Assembly: GCF_019649055.1 (NCBI RefSeq)
Contig: NW_026570244.1
Location: 1-64,000, forward strand
Source: Paramacrobiotus metropolitanus
Lineage: Eukaryota > Tardigrada > Eutardigrada > Parachela > Macrobiotidae
Reading direction: 5' to 3'
Length of the DNA: 64,000 nt
Part shown: positions 3,601 to 23,580 of the stretch, piece by piece
How the letters are laid out: every line of letters starts with the position of its first letter
Numbering within the stretch: the stretch's first letter is position 1
The notes under the pieces: model-generated
The model's database searches: none
Seen by the model: the letters and a program-made list of their open reading frames with translations, nothing else
Told to the model about the DNA's origin: nothing
Program-made: the position numbers and the translations under genes

Positions 3601-3832
3601 GTGCTGATTGTGGCAACAGGGAGCGCCGGGCAACGACAGACCTGCGGTGGGGTCATTATCGGCAGCCAAACCGTGATCATGGCGGCACACTGCTTGCTGG
3701 ATCAGGCAACAAGGTACTCCCAGAATTTTATATACTTCTACCTGTCGATACCTTTCCTTTGCTAAAAATACCTTACCTTTGTAGTTTTGCCCGGCCATAA
3801 CTGTTTTAGGCCGATGCTGCGTGCACGAAAAA

Positions 3833-3868
3833 CACGGGTGTTGGCTGCGTGGACGGCCAACACCCGTG
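3833..3868. repeat. 13-bp perfect hairpin inside pseudogene intron
   Basis: CACGGGTGTTGGC at 3833-3845 is mirrored at 3856-3868 around a 10-nt loop. Nearby, 3940-3956 and 4061-4077 carry inverted copies of an AAATTACCGGACA-type string that recurs near 16345 and 29720, suggesting remains of a mobile element. Confidence 0.6.
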
Positions 3869-6800
3869 AGGACCAAAAAAGGTCACCCGTACACGCAGCC
3901 ATAATGATTTTAGGCTTTACATTGCGGGCTTTACATGCTTGTCCGGTAATTTCTGACGAATCAATACAGCGAAATATACAAATTCACGACGTAGTGTAGT
4001 GGCAATCGCCATAACGCGTATTTCGCGCTAAATGTGTGCTGTATGTATCTTTACGTAGGAAATTACCGGACATGTACACGCAGTCATAATTTTTTACTTA
4101 TATTTTGAATATTTATTTTATTTTCCGTTTATGTGTTTCACTATTCACACTTCTGATTATTGATTTTCACCGTTTATTTTCCTAAATTTTTATTTTTCTC
4201 CTAATACGTTCAGTTGCCTAATCCTTATGGTCGAGTTAGGCGACAACTGTCGGCTGCCAGCGTGCAGGTAGTTATCGGCGCCACTAGCAGTGCGCCTTCC
4301 CCCGGCCTTCCGGATCCCGATGGCTGCAGGGAGAGCTTCGCCGTGGCCACCATCACGACGCGCCCCGACTACGACGACCTCCTCAACGACAACGACCTGG
4401 CCCTGCTCCTCTTGGCTGCGCCTATTGACATCGACCGCAAGTTATGCGCCTGCACACTGTGTCTGAGTTTCCTGGAACCGCAAGTCGGGGACCGGTGCAT
4501 CCTTACCGGGTTTCTAGCGGAAGAGACCGATTCAACCGGCAAGTTAACCCGGTTTTCAGTTTGAATTTTACTTTGAGGTTTCGGTATACAGTGACACCGG
4601 CGACAGCGCTGAAATGGGTGGTGCAAACCGTTGCGGACCAGACAGACACCGTCCTGTGCCCGGCCTTCACGGATGGGACCCGGCAGACCAACCGCAGCCG
4701 GAATATCTGCACCACAGCTCCGGTTGGACAGGGTTCGTGCCAAGGAGACGATGGTCAGTGACTATTTACTATTACCTCGCTCTTTCATAAATTGAAGCGC
4801 AATCGCGTACAAACTAGCAGTAAGCACCTCCTAGGCGGTCCACTCGTCTGCAGGGATGGAAACCACAGCCGGTACTATTTGGCCGGCATTCACGGCTTCG
4901 ATTCTGCCACCTGGGGCACCGGCCTTGGCAGTCAGAATACCAAAGTGCTACCATACCTTCAGTGGATCGCCGACAACGCTTTTCCTGGAGATGTTCCGGC
5001 TCCCGTCGTAGTGGCGCCACTTGCGGCCCTCCCAAAGCAACCGAACCCATTTCGGCAAATTCTCGACACTACCACGATGGCAGCGGACCCTGTGATAATC
5101 ACGGCGGGCTCGACTGCGAGTAGCGCCACCGTCATGCCGGTTCCCGTTCCAAGCGGCCGGGAACCGTGTGGGGTTCCCGGGAACGGGCAGGCGGACCCCT
5201 TTGGCATCGTCAACCAGAGTCGACTGAAACAAGCGTTGGCTTTTCACCCGGCCGGGGTCACATCGTTTATGCGTCCCCGGCGCAAGGGACCCAAGGCCCG
5301 TCCGATGCGCCGAGACTTCTCCGAGACGGAGGACCCATTGCCACGTATCCTCGGCGGAACGGACACCACGCCGACGCTGATCTGCTGGCAGGCTTATGTG
5401 ATTGTCAACCAGGGAAACGGTCAGGAGAGCACGTGCGGCGGCGTCATCGTCGGTTCGCAGACGGTCCTGACGGCGGCTACTTGCATGGTCACCAGCAACG
5501 CGTGCGTCACGCTTTTATTTGGCAGCAACACCCGCTTGACCTTTTGATTACGTAGATCTCCCATACCAGCGTCGGACTTCAGTGTGGTGGTGGGCGCCAT
5601 CGACAGCAATTCCCGGCTTCCGACGCCCAGGATCCGACGGGGTGCGCCCAGCTCTTCAGTGTCCAGGCGGCTGCGATCAATCCGGGATACGTCTACAGTA
5701 CCGACGATAACGATATCGGTGAGACAAAACCATGAATCTAAGAATCTAAGAAACCTAAGAAACTCCTCGTCCTGAGGCAATTGAATACTGATGTCCGTCA
5801 AGGTCTCCTGACACTGTCGACGCCCATCGATTTGGTAAATAAACCCTGTGCCTGCGCGATCTGTCTGACGGATCGCGTGCCGGCGGTTAATGAGTCCTGC
5901 GGAATCAGCGGTTACGGATCCGAGAGCAACGCCGTAACTCGTAAGTCGCTAAACGGTCCGCGTACAAATACTTTATGTACAATACTTATACAGCGCCCCG
6001 CAGCGTTATTCCCTTGAAATGGACCACACAAAAGGTCAACGTCCAGGATAAGAATTGCGCCACATTCTGCTCGGGCTCATTGTGCACCAACGTCAGCAGC
6101 TACATGTAGGGGCTTCGCTCGCTTTTGGCCTCCCGGACCCCGATTGGTTTAACCCGGCTTTTATTTTAGCTGCACGACGGGTGCCGTCGGTCAAGACCAG
6201 TGCGTCGGCGATGCCGGTAAATAAATTCAATAACAAAATAGATTAAAACAAAATGCCGGTATACAGTAATCTGTATTACTCAGGCGGTCCTCTTTTCTGT
6301 TACAACCCGGCGGAGAGTAATTACTACCTGGCCGGGATCATGGCCTTCGGCTCGGAGACCTGCGGCAAAGGTCAGGGCGTCCAGAACACCAAGGTATCCC
6401 TGTTCCTGCAGTGGATCGCCGACACCTCGTTGGCCGGCGACGTCATCTTTGACACCACCGCGGTGGTCACGAAACCGCCGCCCCCGACCTCCACTACCAC
6501 CACCACCACGACGACACCGGCAACTACCACCACTGCCCCACCCATCGTCCGCTGTGGAGTGTCCGGGACGGGAGCGGAGGATCCATTCGGACTGGCCACG
6601 CAGTTCCGCTTCGGCTCCTTCACCAAATCCCGGATGCCGGTGATCCCTACCATCGTGGGCGGGACTCCGGCGCAGTCCAAGGAGATCTGTTGGCAGGTGG
6701 GTGGCAGAGACCTTTCCGATGACTGCGACCTTACCGGACGTTGTGGCTCGTACAGGCTCTGATAATCGCGGAAGTCGATGCCGACAATATCGTTTATTGT

Positions 6801-7359
6801 GGCGGCGTCGTGGTGGGCAGCCGGACGATCCTCACCGCCGGACACTGTCTGCATAACTACACTACAAAGTACACAGCTTATTACTGTACGTTACCGCAAC
6901 TTCGTGACCATTTGGTTTGGTTGGCTGGTTTGCAGGGTGCCGGTGACAGACGCCAGCCTGGTCTCGGTGTTCGTCGGCAGCATGACGTTTCCGGCCTCGA
7001 GCGACACCAGCGGCTGCGTGCAGCAGGGCACCGTGTCTCAGATTATTAACCGCGCCGACTGGAACGCTCACAACCTCGATAACGATATCGGTACGTAGAA
7101 GTGACGCTGTGTCAGCCGAGCGGTGCAGCGTTGCGTTGTGTTCGTATAGCGATGCTGGTGCTGGCCACGTCCCTCAACATCGCCGGCAGCGGCGGCTGTG
7201 TGTGCACCGCCTGCTTGACGGACCGGCAGCCGGCCACGGGGGAGCGCTGCGTGGTCTCCGGATACGGCCAGCAGACAGCGGACGATAACGCCCGTACGTA
7301 TATATCAATAATGAATACCACTTATGTCAAAAATATCAAAGAACAAACAGGAGAAGGGC

Positions 7360-7535
7360 GCGCTGTTCCGTATTTGTGGCAATGTATAAGTGTGTGGAAA
7401 TTCAGCGCGGAAACACGGCTTCTGTCCTGGGGACGGTCGGGTGTTCTCGAGAGTCAGAATAGTTATTTTACTTGTTCTTAAATTTATTGGGTTTTTAAAG
7501 TTTGAATGCACCTAAATGGAATTGGTTTGTACAAG
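7360..7535 (+). repeat. Dispersed repeat, copy 1 (pair at about 16367-16550)
   Basis: The segment from ATTTGTGGCA through GCGGCTTCTGTCCTGGGGAC-like sequence to TTGTACAAGTTG is shared, with small indels, with 16367-16550. Here it lies in the enlarged intron between pseudogene exons 7150-7293 and 8088-8258, which is only 60 nt in the intact gene. Probably a MITE insertion. Confidence 0.6.
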
Positions 7536-7566
7536 TTGATAATAAATATATACCACTTAATGGCAC

Positions 7567-7818
7567 TTAAATTGTACGCGAATTTCCTATCCTGGGATCC
7601 GGTATGTTGGGAGAATGCAGACTTCCGTGCGGTAACTGAGGTTTGATGGGTGCCGGCATGGCCGGAAGTGCGCAATTACAGCTGAGTATCTTACCCGGCG
7701 GTACAGATTGCTCACTGTCGGCACCTTCCGCCTGTGCCCGGTCCCTTCGCCCCCCTTTATTGATAATGACAAAAACAATCAAGAACCATGTGCATAACGG
7801 AATAAGACAGCTTGCCAT
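7567..7818 (-). CDS. Possible small secreted protein nested in the pseudogene intron
   Basis: A single open frame of 83 aa starts MASCLIPLCTWFLIVFVI, a good signal-peptide or anchor pattern, followed by a Pro- and Ser-rich mature part with two close Cys residues (CNC). It starts at an ATG and needs no splicing. It lies antisense in the 0.8-kb intron that separates two protease pseudogene exons, which in the intact paralogue is 60 nt, so the sequence arrived with an insertion. I recognise no family. It may be a chance frame in inserted DNA. Confidence 0.3.
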   Translation of the reverse strand: MASCLIPLCTWFLIVFVIINKGGRRDRAQAEGADSEQSVPPGKILSCNCALPAMPAPIKPQLPHGSLHSPNIPDPRIGNSRTI

Positions 7819-8430
7819 AGCAGCTCAGAAACCAATATCCAGGATGTGCCCTGTAGGGCGGGTGGGTGGTAAATTCAACCGTAACAGCAAGAATGTAGCA
7901 AAAACACGAATGCGAGTGAAAGCTAGCTGTAACGCACGAAAGGCAAGATGCACACGGCACCGTGCTGCCGGTGCCGGGATGAACAGGGAAACAACAGTAC
8001 AGGGATACGTAAATTGCGCCAATTTGACATTAGCTAAGTAACACTTAACTTTCATTTATGTTGGCTATAAATTGACGCTCTCTTTAGCGGAACCCGATGT
8101 GGTCATTTTGTCTTGGGTGACGGAGCCGGTGATGGCGCAGAACTACGACGGGGACGTGTTCCGTTCTTGTGGATCAGACCACCGGCGCCGTTTACGGATC
8201 TACATAATTTCATTTGCGCCGGCGGTCAGACCGGGAAGGCCAGCTGCTTTGGCGACAGGTAAACACGTAATTCGTTCCTGCGCTAGGTTTAATGGTTTAA
8301 CATCTGCACACATTCAGGGCAGGAGCCCAGTTCGAAGCAGCAAACACTCACAAGTCACAACAACAACAATTCTCCAGAATACGCAGTATTTCAGATCAAG
8401 CTTCAAGCAAGAGTACAGTAATTTAAACAC

Positions 8431-8782
8431 CACAACTCACCAGGGCACATTTTCCGGGTGTAAATTCAAAAAATCTCATCTCTTGTAAAAAGGAAGTATA
8501 CTACCGTAGTAAGTTTAAAAAAATAATTACATCTGCCATGGTGCATGGGCGTGGCCAAAACAGAATTTAACAATAAATTCTGCACGTACGAAATAAATAA
8601 CGTACGATGCGGTGCATTGCCCATAGGCTACAGTATAGTGTAGAATTTTTTGTTAAATTCTGCTTTGGCTACGCCCATTGACCATAGCAGATGGAATAAT
8701 TTTTTAAACATACTACGGTAGTATATTATGTTTTTACAAGAGATGAGATTTGTTTGAATTTACACCCGGAAAATGCGCCCTC
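8431..8782. mobile_element. Short TIR element (MITE), in last intron of the protease pseudogene
   Basis: The ends are inverted repeats: GGGCACATTTTCCGGGTGTA at the left is mirrored at the right, and the match continues for roughly 100 bp per arm through a GGGCGTGGCC-like segment to an AT-rich centre. It has no transposase. Ends of the AGGGC type and an internal GGGCGTGGC string are shared with the larger element at 25677-26354, so they may belong to one family. I do not see a clean target-site duplication. Confidence 0.7.
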
Positions 8783-9287
8783 GTCAGTACACCCACTCCC
8801 TTACAAACACATTTGTTGACTAAATCTCAGGATTTAACATTTTTTTTCGCCACAAACGTACCAATGCGAGCAAACATGCGTTGTTTAATTAAAGTCCTTT
8901 GCGTCAGGAGATGTATAGTACTGCTTAAACCACCGGCAAGAGAATCTTATTTTCAGCGGTGGTCCGTTTATGTGCTACGATCCTGCCACGGCGTCCCACT
9001 ACGTGGCCGGATTAGTGTCCTTCGGGAACGACCCCTGCGGGTAGACCGAGGGCAGTCAGTACACCAAGGTGGCCGCCTACCTCGACTGGATCCTAGCCAA
9101 CGCCCCGGTTGGCGACGTCACTATCCAACCGATCACCACAACCACCACTAGCCATCCGTCTACTGCAGCGTCCACCCCGGCCGGCGCAACCGGGCTGCCG
9201 GGGACCGGGGCTCCTGGATACTACTATCCGGACTAGATGACCGGCAGCCGCAATAAGGGAGTTCCGGCCGACGTGTTCGGCGGCTGA

Positions 9288-12480: not shown

Positions 12481-12487
12481 TAATACA

Positions 12488-12960
12488 CACTGTGCTACGA
12501 CCCTATCACGGCGTCTCACTACGTGACTGGATTAGTGTCCTTCGGGAACGATCCCTGCGGGCAGACCGAGAGCAGCCAGTACACCAAGGTGGCCGCCTAC
12601 CTCGACTGGATCCAAGCCAACGCTCCGGCTGGCGACGCTACCATCCAACCGATCACCACCACACCTCCAGTCTCCCGTCTACTGCAGCGTCCACCCCGAG
12701 CAGCGCACCCGGGGTGTCGGGGACTCCAGGATACTACTGGTACTATCCGGACTAGGTGACCGGCAACCGCAATAAGGGACTTCCGGCCAATATGTTCGAC
12801 GGACGGTTAATATCTGCAGATTGTCATGGAGAAGGATTCGATTTCGGCTGAACGGTGATACGGATGTGATTTAGACTTTAGTGATACTGATCTTCGTTCT
12901 GTGGGTTTGAGCCAGTTGTGATGGCGTAGCTAGGCTGCAGTGATTTCTGTGACGTGTTGC
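12488..12960 (+). pseudogene. Stray copy of the protease last exon and 3' flank
   Basis: From TGTGCTACGACCC onward this matches the domain-4 terminal exon (compare 8957-9287 and 23208-23580), including the VSFGNDPCGQT segment and the DWIQANAP motif, then the same 3' flank as 9288-9480. There is no splice acceptor or upstream exon. The frame shifts in the Thr/Pro linker and a TAG interrupts near the C-terminus. It is closer to the 9-kb copy than to the 23-kb gene, so it probably arose from that copy. Confidence 0.8.
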
Positions 12961-13360: not shown

Positions 13361-14100
13361 TTAAACATTAAAAAAACAGCCAAAATCGTTAGCGCTGTCA
13401 GTCATTTTAGAACGCATACCCAAAGTGCCCAAAACAGCAGCGGCATTTCCTTTTACAACAGCCAGGCTAAATCTCTGCTTTAAAAATGCGGTAGAGCGTG
13501 GCTTCCCTGTCGCGTCGCGAATCCTGCCAACGAAACGAATAAGCTCCGAAAATGCCGGACCAAAAGTTCCAAAGGTCTCGACCGCCAGGGGATAAAGAAG
13601 ATATCCCATTCTTTCACAAAGGCGTATTTACGACGTTTACTGTCTTCGGCCAAGAGCGCAACACTGCCGGATGCACTCGCGCTTGCCCGCACATGGGATA
13701 AGGCTACTGTGTCCCAACATGTAGCGTCCCAAAGGAGCGCTTTGCCGTTACGTACAGGAACGAGAGTCATGCCGGCTGGTCGTATATTGTTTATACCGGA
13801 CAGTCCCAGTGGCTCGCTTTGGCATGGATACCCAGCATGTTCCAAAGCCCGCTTTGTTATATCGTTGAGTTCCACATGTCTAGACCATCTTCCTCGGCTG
13901 CTGGAACAGGATAGGCCGTGGTGACCATTTGTTTCCACATGGCTTCCGCAGTTCACACAGTCGTGTTCTTCTACAGCTGGAAGTCCAAACCGAAGTGCGA
14001 TGCCAATACGCACTTCTTCATCCCGCAAGAACGTGCGCAAATTAGGTGCAGGCAAAGCATTTAGCCATACTGTTGTTGCTGTCATTTCGCCGTGCAAAAT
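13361..14100 (-). pseudogene. 3' fragment of a non-LTR retrotransposon polyprotein
   Basis: Two minus frames (13480-14097 and 13361-13609) together match the C-terminal region that follows the reverse transcriptase in many animal LINE-like elements: a WLNALP block, EEVRIGIALRFGLP, a C-x2-C...H-x4-C zinc knuckle (CVNCG ... GHHGLSC), a WDATCWDT block, then PLAVETFGTFGP and RSTAFLKQR. A frameshift near 13600 separates the last two blocks. The reverse transcriptase and endonuclease are absent, as in a 5'-truncated insertion. I see no poly-A tail, so the copy is probably old. Confidence 0.78.
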
Positions 14101-14501
14101 TGTAGTGAAAAACTATGCCCGTGGTAGCAAAGCAGTACATGGTAGCCCTATGGGATCCATGGTAACACGCGTTTAAATGACCACTGGGCGTAACAAAATA
14201 AAGCTGGCGAAACGTAAACAGCCCAGGAACACTCCCCGCAGCCTGCAGATTCTGCTGCAGTTTAATTCAGCAAAATCAGGTGATTAGAAGCTGAGATCAC
14301 TGGCCGGGAGGGAGAGGAGCGAAAATCCTGGCACAGATAGTTAGTATTCATATAACAATGTACTATTATATCCCATTTTACAAGCCTGTCGACAAATTGG
14401 ACATAACAGGAAACATAACAAATTTACCGGCTACACTTAAATCCATAGTATGGCGCGCCACGCCAACACCATTTTAACGAGTAAAAAAGGTTTGGTGAGT
14501 C

Positions 14502-14941
14502 GGTGACCACTCCGTACACACCCTTTCACTCCGTACACAACCTTTTGCACTCCCTTTCGTTCCGTGCACAACCTTTTTGCGCACTACCATTCACTCGGTG
14601 CACTACCAAACTTTTATATATATTTATATACATGTATATTATACTTAAATACTTATCAAGGAACTAGATCTATAATATAACTACAAAAAAAGCTGAGGCA
14701 TCGAGATCGGAAAAACCAGAACCTAATAAAAAAAACTGTAATCGCCATTAGATTCAGCATGTTCAGAAACATGTTCAGAAATACTCGTACAATAACTCTG
14801 CTGTGAAAAAATTTAAAAAAATTAAAAGGTTGTGTACGGAATGAAAGGTAGCGCAAAAAGGTTGTGCACGGAATGAAGGGGAGTGCAAAAGGTGGTGTAC
14901 GGAGTAAAAGGGTGTGAAAGGGTGTGTACGGAGTGGTCACC
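14502..14941. mobile_element. Foldback element, GGTGACCACTCC ends
   Basis: GGTGACCACTCCGTACACA at the left is mirrored by TGTGTACGGAGTGGTCACC at the right. Each arm is built of degenerate tandem units (ACTCCGTACACAACCTTT-like), with an AT-rich centre and no coding capacity. The element at 28419-28855 has the same ends and unit. Confidence 0.8.
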
Positions 14942-17078: not shown

Positions 17079-20000
17079 ATGGCTGACTTCTTCAGACTGC
17101 ATTCGTTACCCGGCATCTTCCTGCTCTTTTTCGTGATCCAAGCATCCCACAGCAAACTTTTTATACGCCGGAACCGGCGACCGAATCCCGGTCAAGGGGA
17201 CACCACCGGTTTCCGGGCAATCGCTGGCGGTGTTCCGCTGCAATCCACCTCGTTAGTCGACACCGGAGGCCGATCGCGACCATCGAAACAGTGCGGGCAA
17301 CCCGGTGACGGCAGCGTCGATCCGTTCGGGTTAAACCGCAGCCCGGCGACACGCAGCCGGCAACGGGAGATCTTCGGGCGCCGGCGTACCGCCAGCAGTC
17401 CGCGGGAATGGCAGCCGGAAGCGGAGGGACGGGTTCTGGGTGGGGCTGACATAGGCCCGAACACCGCCTGCTGGCAGGTACGTGATATCATACAAACCAA
17501 CTAAATTTTGCAACTGTTCATTAGATTGGCGTTGGCTGTTATATGCTGAACGAAGTCGCAGTTGGTTACGCGGATCACCATGACAGCTTTCTGTTGTCCT
17601 AACTAGTACTCGTATTTGCATAGGCGTTGCTTGTGGCAACGGGAAGCGCCGGGCAACAGCAGACATGTGGCGGGGTCATAATCGGCAGCCAAACCGTGCT
17701 CACAGCGGCCCATTGCCTGCTTGATAACACCACAAGGTCTCTACAGAATTGACATAAATATTCCCGATCGCTTTTTGCTGTTAATTATTTTGTTAAAATT
17801 TTCTTTATTTTATTTTGTTTTATTTATTTTATTTTATTTTATTTATTTTTTTTGTTTGATTATTTAGATTCACTCGTTTTAATTTTATTTTGTAATTGTT
17901 TTTACCTGATTACTGATTAGGCGACAACTGCCGGCTGCTAGCGTTGTAGTAGTCATAGGCGCCACGGCCAGTGCACCTTCCCTTGGCACCGCAGACCCCA
18001 ACGGCTGCACGGAAACGTTCGCTGTGTCCACCATTACCACGCGCCCGGACTACGACGACCTCCTTAATGACAACGACCTGGCGCTGCTACTCTTGGCCGC
18101 TCCCATTGCTATTGACCGGAAACCTTGCGCTTGCACCCTCTGCCTGAGTCCCCGGGAACCGGTTGTCGGGGACACGTGCGCCCTTACCGGTTTTTCAGCG
18201 GAAAAGGTCGATCCAACCGGTAAAACATCTGGCCGCTAAATTTGCTGTTACTTGAAAAGTTTTGATATGCAGTGACCCCGGCGACGTTGCTGAAATGGGT
18301 GGCACAGACCGTGGTAAACCAGACCGACACCGTCCTGTGTCCGACCTTCACGGATGGGACCCGGCAGACCAACCGCAGCCGGAACATCTGCACCACAGCT
18401 CCGATTGGACAGGGTTCGTGCCAAGGAGACGATGGTCAGTGATTATTTACTATTATCTCGCTGTCTCACGAGCTGAAGCGCAATCGCGTACAAGTTAGCA
18501 GTAAGCACCTACTAGGTGGTCCACTCGTCTGCTGGGATCCCACCGGCAGTCGGTACTACTTGGCCGGTATCCACGGCTTCGACTCGGCGTTCTGCGGTAC
18601 CGGTCTCGGCAGCCAGAACACTAAGGTGGCGCCGCATCTCCAGTGGATCGCCGACAACGCCTTTCCCGGCGACGTCCCGATTCCCGGGCAAGCGACACCG
18701 GTATCGGTGACCACAAAACCAAGAGTGTTGCATCAAGCTCCCTTCCGGCAAAGTCTCGACACCACCGAATCCTGCGGCCTGATCGGAAACGGGATAACCG
18801 ACCCGTTCGGCATCGAGAACCAGCCGCGCGGGAAGACGGTGTTTGGGAAGACCGCTCCTTCGGCGTTAGAGACGGCCAAGGTCATGGCCATCCGCCGTGG
18901 CGGGCCGAAGCGCCGCCGTGACTCGCGCAGTGACGGGGCCCATCTCGAGCCGAGGATTCTTGGCGGTCAGGACACGAATACCAGCATAATTTGCTGGCAG
19001 GCCTTCGTGGTGGTCGACCAAGGCAACGGGCAGGAGACGACTTGTGGCGGGGTCATTATCGGGCCGCAAACCATCCTGACGGCCGGCACGTGTATGGTCA
19101 ACAGCGGCGGGTAAGCGGTACAGAACAACTTCCTCTGCCCTGCTGTTTCTTAGATTTCTTAGGTTTCTTAATCTTCTGACTTAGTAATGAAGTTAGACTA
19201 TTTTCAGCACACCAATGCCGGCGTCGGCCTTCTCCGTCGTCGTCGGCGCGGTGGACAGTACCGCCCCGGTATCCGACAGTCAGGATACGTCGGGATGCGC
19301 CCAGCAGTTTTCGGTTCAAACGGCGTTGATCAATCCGGGCTACGTGTTCGCCAGCGATGATAACGATATCGGTTAGCATACAACTCTTGATAGACGTCCG
19401 TTGGTATCTGTACAATGAAAGCACGCTGGTTGCAGGAATACTGACGTTGTCCACGCCCATCGATCTCGTCAACAAGATCTGCGCCTGTCCGATCTGCCTG
19501 ACCACGCGGGTACCGGCCGACAACGAGATCTGCGTCATTAGCGGTTATGGATCGGAAACCAACGGCAATCGTAAACCGACGTCGAATAAATTGTATACAT
19601 ATAAGGAAAAAATTTGGGGCGTTCACTTTCAGCGCTTCGTACTGCGATTCCCTTGAAATGGGTCACCCAGAACATCGTCCAGCAAGATAGCAGCTGTGCC
19701 AAGTTCTGCGCGGGATCTCTTTGTACCAATGTCACTAACTACATGTACGTGTCTTTGCAAAGTCTGGATGAGAATGACCTTATTTATTCCGGTGTTATTA
19801 TAGTTGCACGAAAGGCGGAGCTAATAAGGACCAGTGTCTTGGAGACAACGGCGGTCCGCTTTTCTGCTATAATCCTTCCGAAGGCAACTACTACCTGGCG
19901 GGCATTATGGCCTTCACCTCGGAGACCTGCGGTGCCGGGCAGGGCGCCCAGAACACCAAGGTGTCCCTGTATTTGCAGTGGATCGCCGACAACTCTCTCC

Positions 20001-23000
20001 CTGGTGACGTCATCTTCGACACGACTGCCGTGGTCACCTCTGGTACCCAAGCAACGACCCTCGGGACCACTACAGTGGCCTCGACTCCGACTGCGACTGC
20101 GCCGGTCTCGACTGTGAGTGGCGCCACCGTCACCCCGGCTCCCGTTCCCAGTGGTCGGGAACCGTGCGGGATCCCCGGGAACGGGCAGACGGACCCTTTC
20201 GGCATTGTCAACCAGAGTCGGCTGAAACAGGCATTAGCATTCCACCCGGCCGGTGTCTCTTCTTTTATGGGTCCCCGGCGGAAGGAACCCAAGGCCCGCC
20301 CGATGCGCCGGGACTTTTCCGAAGCGATGGACCCGTTGGCGCGAATCATTGGCGGGACAGACACCACGCCGACGCTGATCTGCTGGCAGGCTTTTGTGAT
20401 TGTCAACCAGGGCAACGGTCAGGAGATCACATGCGGCGGCGTCATCGTCGGCCCGCAGACCATCCTGACGGCGGCTACTTGCATGGTCACCAACAACGGC
20501 GCGTGCGTGACGCCACTCTTGTAAATGGCAGCAGCATCGGTTTGACCTTTGATTCTGTAGGTCTCTCGTCGCGGCGTCGGACTTCAGTGTGGTGGTGGGC
20601 GCCATCGACAGCAATTCACCGGCCTCCGACACCCTGGACCCGACGGGCTGTGCCCAGCTGTTCACTGTCCAGGCGGCTGTGACCTATCCTGGATACGTCT
20701 ACAGCACGGATGATAACGATATAGGTTAGGCAAAACCGGTGTGAATTTAAGAAATCTGGGAAATCTAAGAAATCTAAGAAACCTAAGAAACCTGAGATAC
20801 GCTGATGTCCGTTGCAGGTCTCCTGACACTGTCGACGCCCATCGATCTGGTGAATAAACCCTGTGCTTGCGCGATCTGCCTGACGGACCGCGTGCCGGCA
20901 CTTAATGAGTCCTGTGGAATTAGCGGATACGGATCCGAGACCAACGCTGTAACCCGTAAGGCGTTAAATTCTATGCGTTAGTATTTTATATTCGCATCAG
21001 TCCATATACGGTATATCTGTACAGCGCCGCGTAATATTATCCCCCTGAAATGGACGACACAAAAGATCAGCGTCCAGGATAAGAACTGCGCCACGTTCTG
21101 CTCGGGCTCATTGTGCACCAACGTCAGCAGCTACATGTAAGTAAATGCTCCGCTCGTTTTGGCCGTCCGGCATGATTAATGCGCCTTTTCTTTTAGATGC
21201 ACGACGGGTGCGGTCGGTCAAGACCAATGCATCGGCGATGCCGGTAAATAAATTTTAAAACTAATAAGGTTATTTTTTTAATAAGATTAAGTGAAATATA
21301 AAATACGCCGAAGTAAATTAAAAGTTGATTAAATTAAATTAAATTAAATTAAATTAAATTAAATTAAATTAAATTAAATTAAATTAAATTAAATTAAATT
21401 AAATTAAATTAAATTAAATTAAATTAAATTAAATTAAATTAAATTAAATTAAATTAAATTAAATTAAATTAAATTAAATTAAATTAAATTAAATTAAATT
21501 GAATTAAATTAAATTATTACTCAGGCGGGCCTCTGTTCTGTTACAATCCGGGGGAGAGCAACTACTATTTGGCCGGGATCATGGCTTTCGGCTCGGAGAC
21601 CTGCGGCAACGGGCTGGGCGCCCAGAACACCAAGGTGTCCGTGTTCTTGCAGTGGATTGCCGACAACTCACTGGCCGGTGACGTCATCTTCGACACCACC
21701 GCGGTGGTGACGAAACCGCCGCCCCCGACCACCACTACCACCACCACAACGACGACGACGACACCGGCGACTACTACCGGTGCTACGCCCGCTGGCAGCT
21801 GCGGCCTGTCCGGAACCGGAGCCGCGGATCCGTTTGGACTGGCCACGCAGTTCCGTTTCGGCTCCTTCGCTAAATCGCGGGTGTCGGTGTTTCCTACGAT
21901 CGTGGGCGGGACGCTGGCGCAGTCCAAGGAGATCTGCTATCAGGTGGGTAACCTGCTCCTAGCGTGAATATAGAGTGACCTTTACCGGTGACTATGACCT
22001 TTAATGGTAACTGTATAATGATGACTGTGACCTTTTCGGTGGTGTGACCTGTCAGGTGGAGTAGTGGATCCATTTTGAGAACTGTGACCTTTTTGGTAAC
22101 TGTGACCTTTGTAGGCGGTCGTAATAGTGCAGGTCAGCGCCGGCCTCGTCGACTACTGCGGCGGCGTGGTGGTCGGAAGTCGGACGATTCTCACCGCCGG
22201 ACACTGTCTGCATAACGATACCACCGGGTACGCTGCATTCCTCACCACCATCTTGCCACAGTTTTGTGACCTTTGGTATCTGTTTCCAGGGCGGCGCTGA
22301 CGGATCTCAGTCGTATCTCGGTGTACGTCGGCGCCACGGCCTTCTTGCCGACGGTCGACACCACCGGCTGCGTGCAGCAGGGCACCGTGGCGCAGATCAT
22401 CAACCGCGACGACTGGAACGCCAATAACCTCGACAACGACATCGGTACGTCGAAGCGACGCTGTCTCAAAGCGGTGCAACGTTGTGTTGTGTTCGCGTAG
22501 GGATGCTGGTGCTGGCCACGCCCCTCAACATCGCCGGCAGCGGCGGCTGTGTGTGCACCGCCTGCTTGACGGACCGCCAGCCGGCCACGGGGGAGAGCTG
22601 CATGATTTCGGGATACGGCGCGCAGACGCCGGACGATAACGCCCGTACGTGCGCGTCGTTGCAGTTAACTCGAGTTATGCCGGTTAATTGAACGTTCTGT
22701 TCAGCGCAACCGGATGTCATCTTCCTGTCGTGGGTGACGCAGCCCGTACTGGCGCAGAGCACCGACGGGACGTGCTACGTACTGATTGACCCGGTAACCG
22801 GTTCGTTGACGAATCTGAATGATTTTATTTGTGCTGGCGGCCAGAACGGGAAGGACAGTTGCCATGGCGACAGGTAATATGTTTTCTTCAGCTAATAAAA
22901 TATACAAGTGATTCGTTCTTGAGTACGATACCACAAGAAATACACACTCATGGATTACGATTTACAACGATTTTTATACGGTACCAACCCGCATTTTTGT

Positions 23001-23580
23001 GAAAAATTTGAAGAGTGGTTCATAATGAGACTTTTGGTACACCTGAATGCATTAATTAAACATTCTGGAGTTTTGATTCACACATAACTATCCGACTGGA
23101 TGATCCGCGCGCAAACGGGTTTCACGTCTACGTATACCATCAAATCTTTTGGCTACAAAATACCATAAAGCAATACAAAGATTAAATTTTACTGCACTTG
23201 TTTTCAGCGGCGGTCCGTTTATGTGCTACGACCCGACGACGTCATCGTACTACGTGGCCGGGTTAGTGTCCTTCGGGAACGATCCCTGCGGGCAGACCAT
23301 CGGCAGCCAGTACACCAAAGTCGCCGCCTACCTCGACTGGATCCAGGCCAACGCCCCGGCCGGCGACGTCACCATCCGCCTGACCGGCGTCACCACCACT
23401 AGCCTCGCACCACCGGTCACCACGACGACTGCGGCTGCTCCGCCCGGGACGACGGTCAGCGGGGCGCCGGGGACCGGGACCACCGGCTCCTATACCTACC
23501 CGGACAACGTCTACCCGGACTACTACCAGATGACCGGAAGTCGGAATAAGGGACTTCCGGCTAACATGTTCGGCGGCTAA
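17079..23580 (+). CDS. Secreted polyprotein with four tandem S1 serine-protease domains (polyserase-like), 1503 aa
   Basis: The 19 exons are 17079-17477, 17624-17736, 17921-18219, 18273-18434, 18516-19110, 19208-19371, 19436-19570, 19633-19744, 19804-20502, 20561-20724, 20818-20955, 21025-21136, 21197-21243, 21525-21943, 22115-22227, 22290-22444, 22501-22644, 22705-22873 and 23208-23580. The total is 4512 nt and every joint is in phase. Residues 1-25 are a signal peptide. S1 domains start near residues 119, 471, 840 and 1172 (VLGG, ILGG, IIGG, IVGG), each preceded by a CG..G.G..DPFG module. Domain 1 has AAHC and NDND but GDDGGP (Ser to Asp). Domain 2 has TAGTC (His to Thr) and GDNGGP. Domain 3 has TAATC and GDAGGP. 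Domain 4 has TAGHC, DNDIG and GDSGGP, with Asp six residues before the Ser as in trypsins. Linkers are Thr/Pro-rich, and the Tyr-rich tail ends NMFGG. Only domain 4 should be catalytic, yet its activation site lacks a basic P1 (PT|IVGG). Extracellular action is inferred. Confidence 0.93.
21327..21516 (+). repeat. AAATT pentanucleotide microsatellite
   Basis: About 37 near-perfect AAATT units with a single G substitution near 21501 fill most of the 281-nt intron between exons 21197-21243 and 21525-21943. The matching pseudogene intron (6217-6283) has no array. Confidence 0.95.
22960..23195 (+). repeat. Half copy of the GTGCGCGCACAAACGG foldback family
   Basis: The last protease intron is enlarged to 334 nt by a block carrying CATAATGAGACTTTTGGTAC, GCGCGCAAACGGGTTTCAC and GGCTACAAAATACCATAAAG. 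The same string order is found in one arm of 38961-39723 and 57254-57948. Confidence 0.7.

Follow-up and report, generated by a model that had tools for sequence, protein, structure and literature searches.

Three pseudoprotease domains joined to a predicted trypsin-like enzyme of separate ancestry in a probable tandem S1 gene of Paramacrobiotus metropolitanus

In contig C24 (NW_026570244.1) of the tardigrade Paramacrobiotus metropolitanus, the forward strand of the first 64 kb, called the window here, contains at positions 17079-23580 what is probably one gene encoding a secreted chain of four S1 domains. As judged from their residues, domains 1 to 3 (D1-D3) are catalytically dead and domain 4 (D4) is an intact enzyme domain. 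We explain the gene, with about even confidence, as coding for a polyserase-like secreted protein put together from two S1 lineages, one contributing an inactive D1-D2 pair, of which D2 was duplicated to give D3, and the other a C-terminal trypsin-like enzyme, with the inactive domains acting as a binding platform. Established at the level of sequence are the anatomy of the gene, the residue states, the constraint on the inactive domains, the separate ancestry of D4, and a second gene that consists of two inactive domains only. The parts of the gene are listed below; residue numbers (57, 102, 189, 195 etc.) were assigned from motifs, and a slash marks the activation site.

17079..17477, forward strand: first exon, with a putative signal peptide recognised by eye (MADFFRLHSLPGIFLLFFVIQASHS...), a basic N-terminal stretch and the start of domain 1
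17292..18676, forward strand: domain 1 including introns, pseudoprotease; propeptide CGQPGDGSVDPFG, EGR/VLGG, His57/Asp102/Asp195, Gly189
18773..20011, forward strand: domain 2 including introns, pseudoprotease; propeptide CGLIGNGITDPFG, EPR/ILGG, Thr57/Asp102/Asn195, Asp189, Ala214
20165..21685, forward strand: domain 3 including introns, pseudoprotease; propeptide CGIPGNGQTDPFG, LAR/IIGG, Thr57/Asp102/Ala195, Asp189, Ala214
21800..23367, forward strand: domain 4 including introns; propeptide CGLSGTGAADPFG, FPT/IVGG, His57/Asp102/Ser195; pocket Asp189-Gly216-Gly226 with Ser214, predicted to be active and trypsin-like
23368..23580, forward strand: Thr/Pro-rich linker, then a Tyr-rich C-terminal tail and the stop codon (gene model)

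The model was built by hand from splice signals and comprises 19 exons and 18 introns, all of the GT-AG type. The frame is maintained across all 18 joints, giving a stop-free coding sequence of 4512 nt (1503 aa) that ends at 23580; the same end and the same number of joints had been named in an earlier sequence-only reading of this region. A custom spliced aligner returned identical splice sites for the six D4 exons, which is a check of the joints only, as D4 itself was the query. In the encoded chain a hydrophobic leader (by eye) is followed by four units, each consisting of a propeptide and an S1 domain. All four propeptides carry a CG..G.G..DPFG motif, and Thr/Pro-rich stretches are found C-terminal to D2, D3 and D4. 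Tyr-rich ends likewise occur after the last domain in relatives on contig C65. Open frames run through the D1-D2 (18443-19114, 223 aa), D2-D3 (19778-20524, 248 aa) and D3-D4 borders (21503-21967, 154 aa), so that the model places every border within a single exon, which argues for a single gene. Given these bridging frames, four separate genes were judged unlikely, while alternative transcripts may be produced from the locus.

The Pfam profile Trypsin (PF00089) matches each of the four domains, with E-values of 5.7e-27, 2.5e-29, 1.8e-28 and 4.7e-37 for D1 to D4 and scores of 95.4-128.4 bits against a curated cut-off of 20.6, which places all of them in the S1 family and upholds the earlier proposal of four tandem S1 domains. 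Besides Trypsin and Trypsin_2, Pfam returned nothing for the four domains and their propeptides; in particular no CLIP domain was detected, so that the protein does not classify as a clip-domain homologue. The first 122 residues of the chain gave no Pfam match. The best solved-structure matches of the domains are various S1 enzymes; the structure 2b9l, named "prophenoloxidase activating factor", was also matched.

At the codon level, D1 has His57 (CAT, 17711-17713), Asp102 (18075-18077) and Asp at position 195 (GAT, 18431-18433). D2 has Thr57 (ACG, 19088-19090), Asp102 (19365-19367) and Asn195 (AAC, 19847-19849), and D3 has Thr57 (ACT, 20477-20479), Asp102 (20718-20720) and Ala195 (GCC, 21240-21242). 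Only D4 is complete, with His57 (22202-22204), Asp102 (22438-22440), Asp189 (22854-22856) and a Ser195 codon AGC that is interrupted by the last intron (22872-22873 and 23208); its residues are those of a trypsin-like enzyme. Codons and alignment therefore bear out the residues assigned earlier to D1, D2, D3 and D4, and none of D1-D3 has a Ser aligned at position 195. The full His57/Asp102/Ser195 triad is missing from all three, D1 being devoid of Ser195 and D2 and D3 of both His57 and Ser195. The sequence-only reading had not included that Asp189 and Gly226 are retained in D2 and D3 (D1 has Gly189). At position 214, D1 has Gly and D4 has Ser, whereas D2 and D3 share Ala; position 216 is Thr in D2 and Gly in D3. 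The same 14 cysteine columns are present in all four domains, with two extra in D2 and D3, and the inactive domains retain Asp194 and the Ile/Val16 end.

Relatives were found elsewhere in the genome (169.8 Mb, 533 contigs), where the Trypsin family has at least 162 matches at the exon level. The search used D3 and D4 as queries and took up the best candidates only; the window domains were then aligned to these loci with a purpose-written spliced aligner. Alignment rows from C65, C74, C8 and a further copy located upstream of the gene were obtained with an intron-length penalty, those from C16, C21, C1, C5, C14, C40, C66 and C39 in a first family scan without it. Several family rows are automatic models, and the rows C16_730 and C5 contain spurious small exons. 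One row (C65_150k_0) combines a D1-type front with a D2-type back; it was split in two for residue states and kept as one in the tree and in one pair used for substitution rates. Besides the upstream copy in the window, the matches listed comprise domains of the inactive type (C65, C74 and C8) and numerous single-domain loci of the D4 type (C16, C21, C1, C14, C40 and others).

A complete gene of 8 exons and 778 aa, with a leader (by eye) and a stop after its second domain, is located at C65:167176-170636. It encodes a D1-type domain (His, Asp, Asp195) followed by a D2-type domain (Thr57, Asp, Asn195), and its exon 168813-169541 spans both. Among the matches listed, none of D4 type lies downstream of it on C65. 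D1-D3 had been proposed as binding or regulatory modules for one protease, a scope that is too narrow, as the D1-D2 pair also forms a gene without any active domain; the pair thus probably has a role for which no active domain is needed in cis. C74 harbours a pair similar to that of the C65 gene, with ambiguous first exons. Two further pairs were found on C65, one at 56.6-59.5 kb (Gly57/Gly195, then Ala57/Asn102/Asn195) and one at 61.4-64.8 kb, of which the first domain is frame-broken. Partial members of the inactive family are present at 150-159 kb of C65 and on C8, and a decaying copy at 116 kb of C65.

The substitutions recur among these loci. Position 195 is readable in six D1-type domains (D1, its upstream counterpart D1', C65 at 56, 116 and 167 kb, and C74) and is Asp in five, Gly in one and Ser in none; position 57, readable in the same six plus C65 61 kb and the C65 150 kb front, is His in five, Gly in two and Pro in one. 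In the D2-type domains, position 195 (n=10 readable) is Asn five times, Ala twice and Thr, Met and Ser once each, and His57 is absent from all nine readable cases (Thr 7, Ala 1, Ser 1). Ser195 codons are AGY in all Ser rows except C14 (TCG), and the Asn codon AAY is one step away from AGY. In D3 and in six of the seven D1-type rows, an intron lies two bases past the Ser195 intron site of D4, in the next Gly codon (18434 in D1, 21243 in D3); the seventh row is frame-broken. Intron phases at codons 195/196 are accordingly 2 in the Ser codon of D4 and 1 in D3 and most D1-type rows. It is possible that Ser195 was lost through intron sliding at these codons; alternatively, separate intron gains may have occurred. 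The intron adjoining the Ala195 codon of D3 contains about 38 near-perfect ATTAA copies at 21328-21516 (98% matches).

A maximum-likelihood tree was calculated from 33 of 35 rows (all but the partial C65_118k_1 and the frame-broken C65_61k_2), with propeptides and positions 57, 102, 189, 195 and 214 removed. All 16 inactive rows, i.e. those of the D1 and D2/D3 kinds from the window, C65, C74 and C8, form one clade (support 100/99), in which the D1-type rows are a subclade (100/98) and the D2-type rows lie on one side of a less well supported branch (65/94). D4 pairs with its upstream counterpart D4' (100/100) outside the inactive clade. Forcing the seven window domains into one clade costs 78.6 log units and is rejected by the approximately unbiased (AU) test (p-AU 7e-58). 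The "stepwise loss" of catalytic residues along the protein, as suggested by the sequence-only reading, is not sustained by these results: D1-D3 cluster with inactive domains encoded at other loci of the genome, and the position of D4 outside that cluster rules out losses along a single duplicated array. Within the inactive clade, D3 groups with its upstream counterpart D3' (100/99) and D2 is sister to both (99/97), so that the D2/D3 duplication looks older than the duplication of the gene.

A single-domain S1 locus at C66:477714-479196 (minus strand) combines His57 and Asp102 with Asp195 (GDDGSA), the replacement also seen in D1. In the tree it branches outside the inactive clade on a long branch, and its forced grouping with that clade has a p-AU of 0.16; the Asp195 of this locus and that of D1 could be of either common or separate origin.

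The two lineages also differ at their activation sites. The residues before position 16 are EGR, EPR and LAR in D1, D2 and D3 versus FPT in D4; that is, the inactive domains have a trypsin-type site with Arg as the residue preceding the cut (P1), whereas P1 is Thr in D4. P1 is covered in 14 of 18 inactive rows, where it is Arg in 12 and Lys in two, and clear in 12 of 16 D4-type rows (outgroup excluded), with Thr in eight and Arg or Lys in four. In five of the eight Thr rows (D4, D4', C1, C16_741 and C16_780) an Arg is located seven residues ahead of position 16. As a lead only, this suggests for Thr-type sites a first cut at that Arg and a subsequent trimming of six residues.

The ratio of nonsynonymous to synonymous substitution rates (dN/dS) was determined according to Nei-Gojobori for 18 pairs. 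In 11 same-type inactive pairs it ranges from 0.10 to 0.30: among pairs involving the window, it is 0.20 for D1/D1', 0.17 for D3/D3', 0.15 for D2/D3, 0.14 for D1/C65 and 0.10 for D2/C65; C65 versus C74 gives 0.11 for the second and 0.30 for the first domains, and C65/C8 0.20; within C65, values are 0.27 (167/116 kb), 0.18 (58/63 kb) and 0.21 (169/150 kb). Active pairs yielded 0.21 (C21) and 0.11 (C16, at a dS of 2.45), a third being without value owing to saturated dS. Comparisons across types gave 0.40 (D1/D4) and 0.36 (D3/D4), and D4/D4' 0.32. The inactive domains thus seem to be kept about as strongly as their active relatives. With at least one relative made up entirely of inactive-kind domains, the dead domains give the impression of a module that has been preserved, not of remnants in decay. 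That they are neutral by-products of tandem duplication that are about to be lost is, in our view, very improbable: decay of the upstream copy and of the C65 116 kb copy shows that birth and death goes on in the family and would fit such a fate, but the low ratios of the same-type pairs, the full cysteine set, the open frame of 1503 residues and the recurrence of similar substitutions in different genes speak against it.

Although catalytic residues are lost, the inactive domains still match the S1 family, keep the cysteines and Asp194, carry a basic site that can be cut and are under sequence constraint. This profile is that of serine protease homologues, and by analogy we read D1-D3 as a cleavage-switched binding platform. 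According to this proposal, an inactive pair of the kind also found as a free-standing two-domain protein was joined to the trypsin-like D4. The inactive domains would probably be cut at the conserved R/I site, as in insect serine protease homologues, by some trypsin-like protease; they would stay attached to the propeptide via its conserved cysteine and, given the retained Asp194 and Ile/Val16 end, could adopt the activated S1 shape. In this state they may hold a substrate, cofactor or inhibitor near D4, after the fashion of insect serine protease homologues. Enzyme and pseudo-domains would be switched separately, since D4, with Thr before IVGG, would call for a different cut. An extracellular protease cascade may exist, as Spaetzle-type domains are present in the genome (15 exon-level matches). 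More tentatively, and we consider this rather doubtful, there could be a class of secreted double pseudoproteases with non-catalytic triads that recur under selection (mostly His-Asp-Asp, then mostly Thr-Asp-Asn) and act alone as cleavage-switched binding proteins, the window gene joining such a switch to an enzyme with different or two-step activation (Thr/Ile), so that dead and live parts are switched separately.

Several points weigh against the proposal of a conserved, cleavage-switched platform. One D2-type domain (C65 63 kb) has Ser195, together with Ser57. On the tree, a minimum of 8 changes at position 195 and 6 at position 57 is required over all rows, and at least four between Ser and non-Ser at position 214, so that individual positions go on changing among the inactive domains. 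The difference between inactive and D4-type rows in basic versus Thr P1 has a Fisher p of 3e-4, which is overstated as the rows share descent; moreover, one of the 14 inactive P1 residues (Arg, C74 domain 1) is on a doubtful exon, and that of the D4-type C16_730 is on a chained alignment. D1 versus D2 has a dN/dS of 0.41; of the 11 same-type inactive pairs, four have rough ratios because their dS is 1.05-3.06, and three involve decaying copies (the upstream copy twice, C65 116 kb once). Finally, a genome search for the hemocyanin/prophenoloxidase and CLIP families gave no match, though this search had no working control and their absence is not established.

Two other uses of the inactive domains have to be considered. 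They could act as decoys that intercept trypsin inhibitors, or could trap basic peptides, and in this way spare D4. D2 and D3 could bind Arg/Lys ligands or canonical inhibitors uncut, since Asp189 and Gly226 (in D3 also Gly216) are kept and His57 and Ser195 are lost, and Asp189 plus Gly226 are retained in all ten readable D2-type rows. D1, however, has Gly189 and D2 Thr216. Moreover, 15 of the 17 inactive rows readable at position 214 have Ala or Gly instead of Ser, which should make the contacts to a bound chain weaker (of the other two, a frame-broken row has Pro and the partial row C65 158 kb has Ser). As decoys or traps would also leave the conserved Arg/Lys activation site of the dead domains unexplained, we regard them as unlikely. 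Equally improbable, we think, is more than one product, either by separate D1-D2(-D3) and D4 transcripts or by cutting of the chain into independently acting domains as in polyserase-1, which is reported to be processed into independent domains (PMC1435904). The separate gene for a D1-D2 protein without D4, the R/I site in each inactive domain and the basic stretches ahead of it in D2 and D3 would be in line with this possibility; on the other hand, all three borders are bridged by an open frame, and the conserved propeptide cysteine could tether a cut domain to its linker.

Upstream of the gene, the window contains two further elements of the same family:

3601..9131, forward strand: decaying tandem copy with D1' (Asp195), D3' (Thr57, Ala195) and D4' remnants
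12487..12648, forward strand: lone extra copy of the last domain-4 exon, 81% identical to D4 query residues 246-299

Neither window searches nor alignment revealed anything corresponding to exon 1 or domain 2 in the copy at 3601-9131, which probably lost D2. Its second D3' exon shifts the frame, the fifth D4' exon is read in three frames (8090-8259), and a stop codon is present within the last D4' exon. The lone exon lies about 3.4 kb past this copy. Between the lone exon and the gene there are two blocks of tandem repeats with units of 19-34 bases (14508-14607 and 14824-14932); by eye, the units of one block look like reverse complements of those of the other, an arrangement such as a mobile element or a large hairpin would show. 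A Cys/His-rich open frame of 210 aa on the minus strand (13480-14112) resembles, by eye, the end of a retroelement protein and has no Pfam match; Pfam gave no hit for three neighbouring minus-strand reading frames.

Insect clip-domain serine protease homologues resemble D1-D3 in being non-catalytic S1 domains; they operate in extracellular cascades, and those of mosquitoes are described as non-catalytic yet cleavage-dependent (PMC6901238). The window gene differs from them in having no CLIP match, in its chain of four S1 domains and in the fusion to an intact enzyme. The polypeptidases of Tenebrio molitor join serine protease (SP) and serine protease homologue (SPH) domains and thus, like the window gene, unite active and inactive S1 domains in one panarthropod protein, with activation sites before the domains (PMC11172050). 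In four two-domain Tenebrio proteins, however, the active domain is chymotrypsin-like and comes first, whereas that of the window gene is trypsin-like and last; the six that are secreted have L/I sites, and Sushi or LDL modules occur frequently (PMC11172050), whereas the window gene has no further Pfam module. Serine protease families are listed among candidate panarthropod-specific groups (PMC5531438), and within the one literature collection searched we found no paper linking a tardigrade with "serine protease homolog" or "pseudoprotease". The present gene provides an example of inactive S1 domains that seem to have been kept as such and to form a lineage separate from the adjoining active domain, in contrast to the simpler view that a tandem protease loses one site after another. 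With a free-standing inactive pair and its fusion in one genome, pseudoprotease function could be tested directly both in the presence and in the absence of an enzyme in cis. In human polyserase-2, only the first of three S1 domains is active (PMC1435904); this protein shares with the window gene the secreted tandem chain with one active domain and others devoid of catalytic residues. In the window gene, by contrast, the only intact domain of the four comes last, R/I sites are retained in the inactive domains, and the D1-D2 pair also stands alone in another gene. With at least two S1 domains encoded by one gene in the 19-exon model, the protein is, by its predicted architecture, of the polyserase kind; what distinguishes it is that the active domain comes last and that the inactive pair also has a gene of its own.

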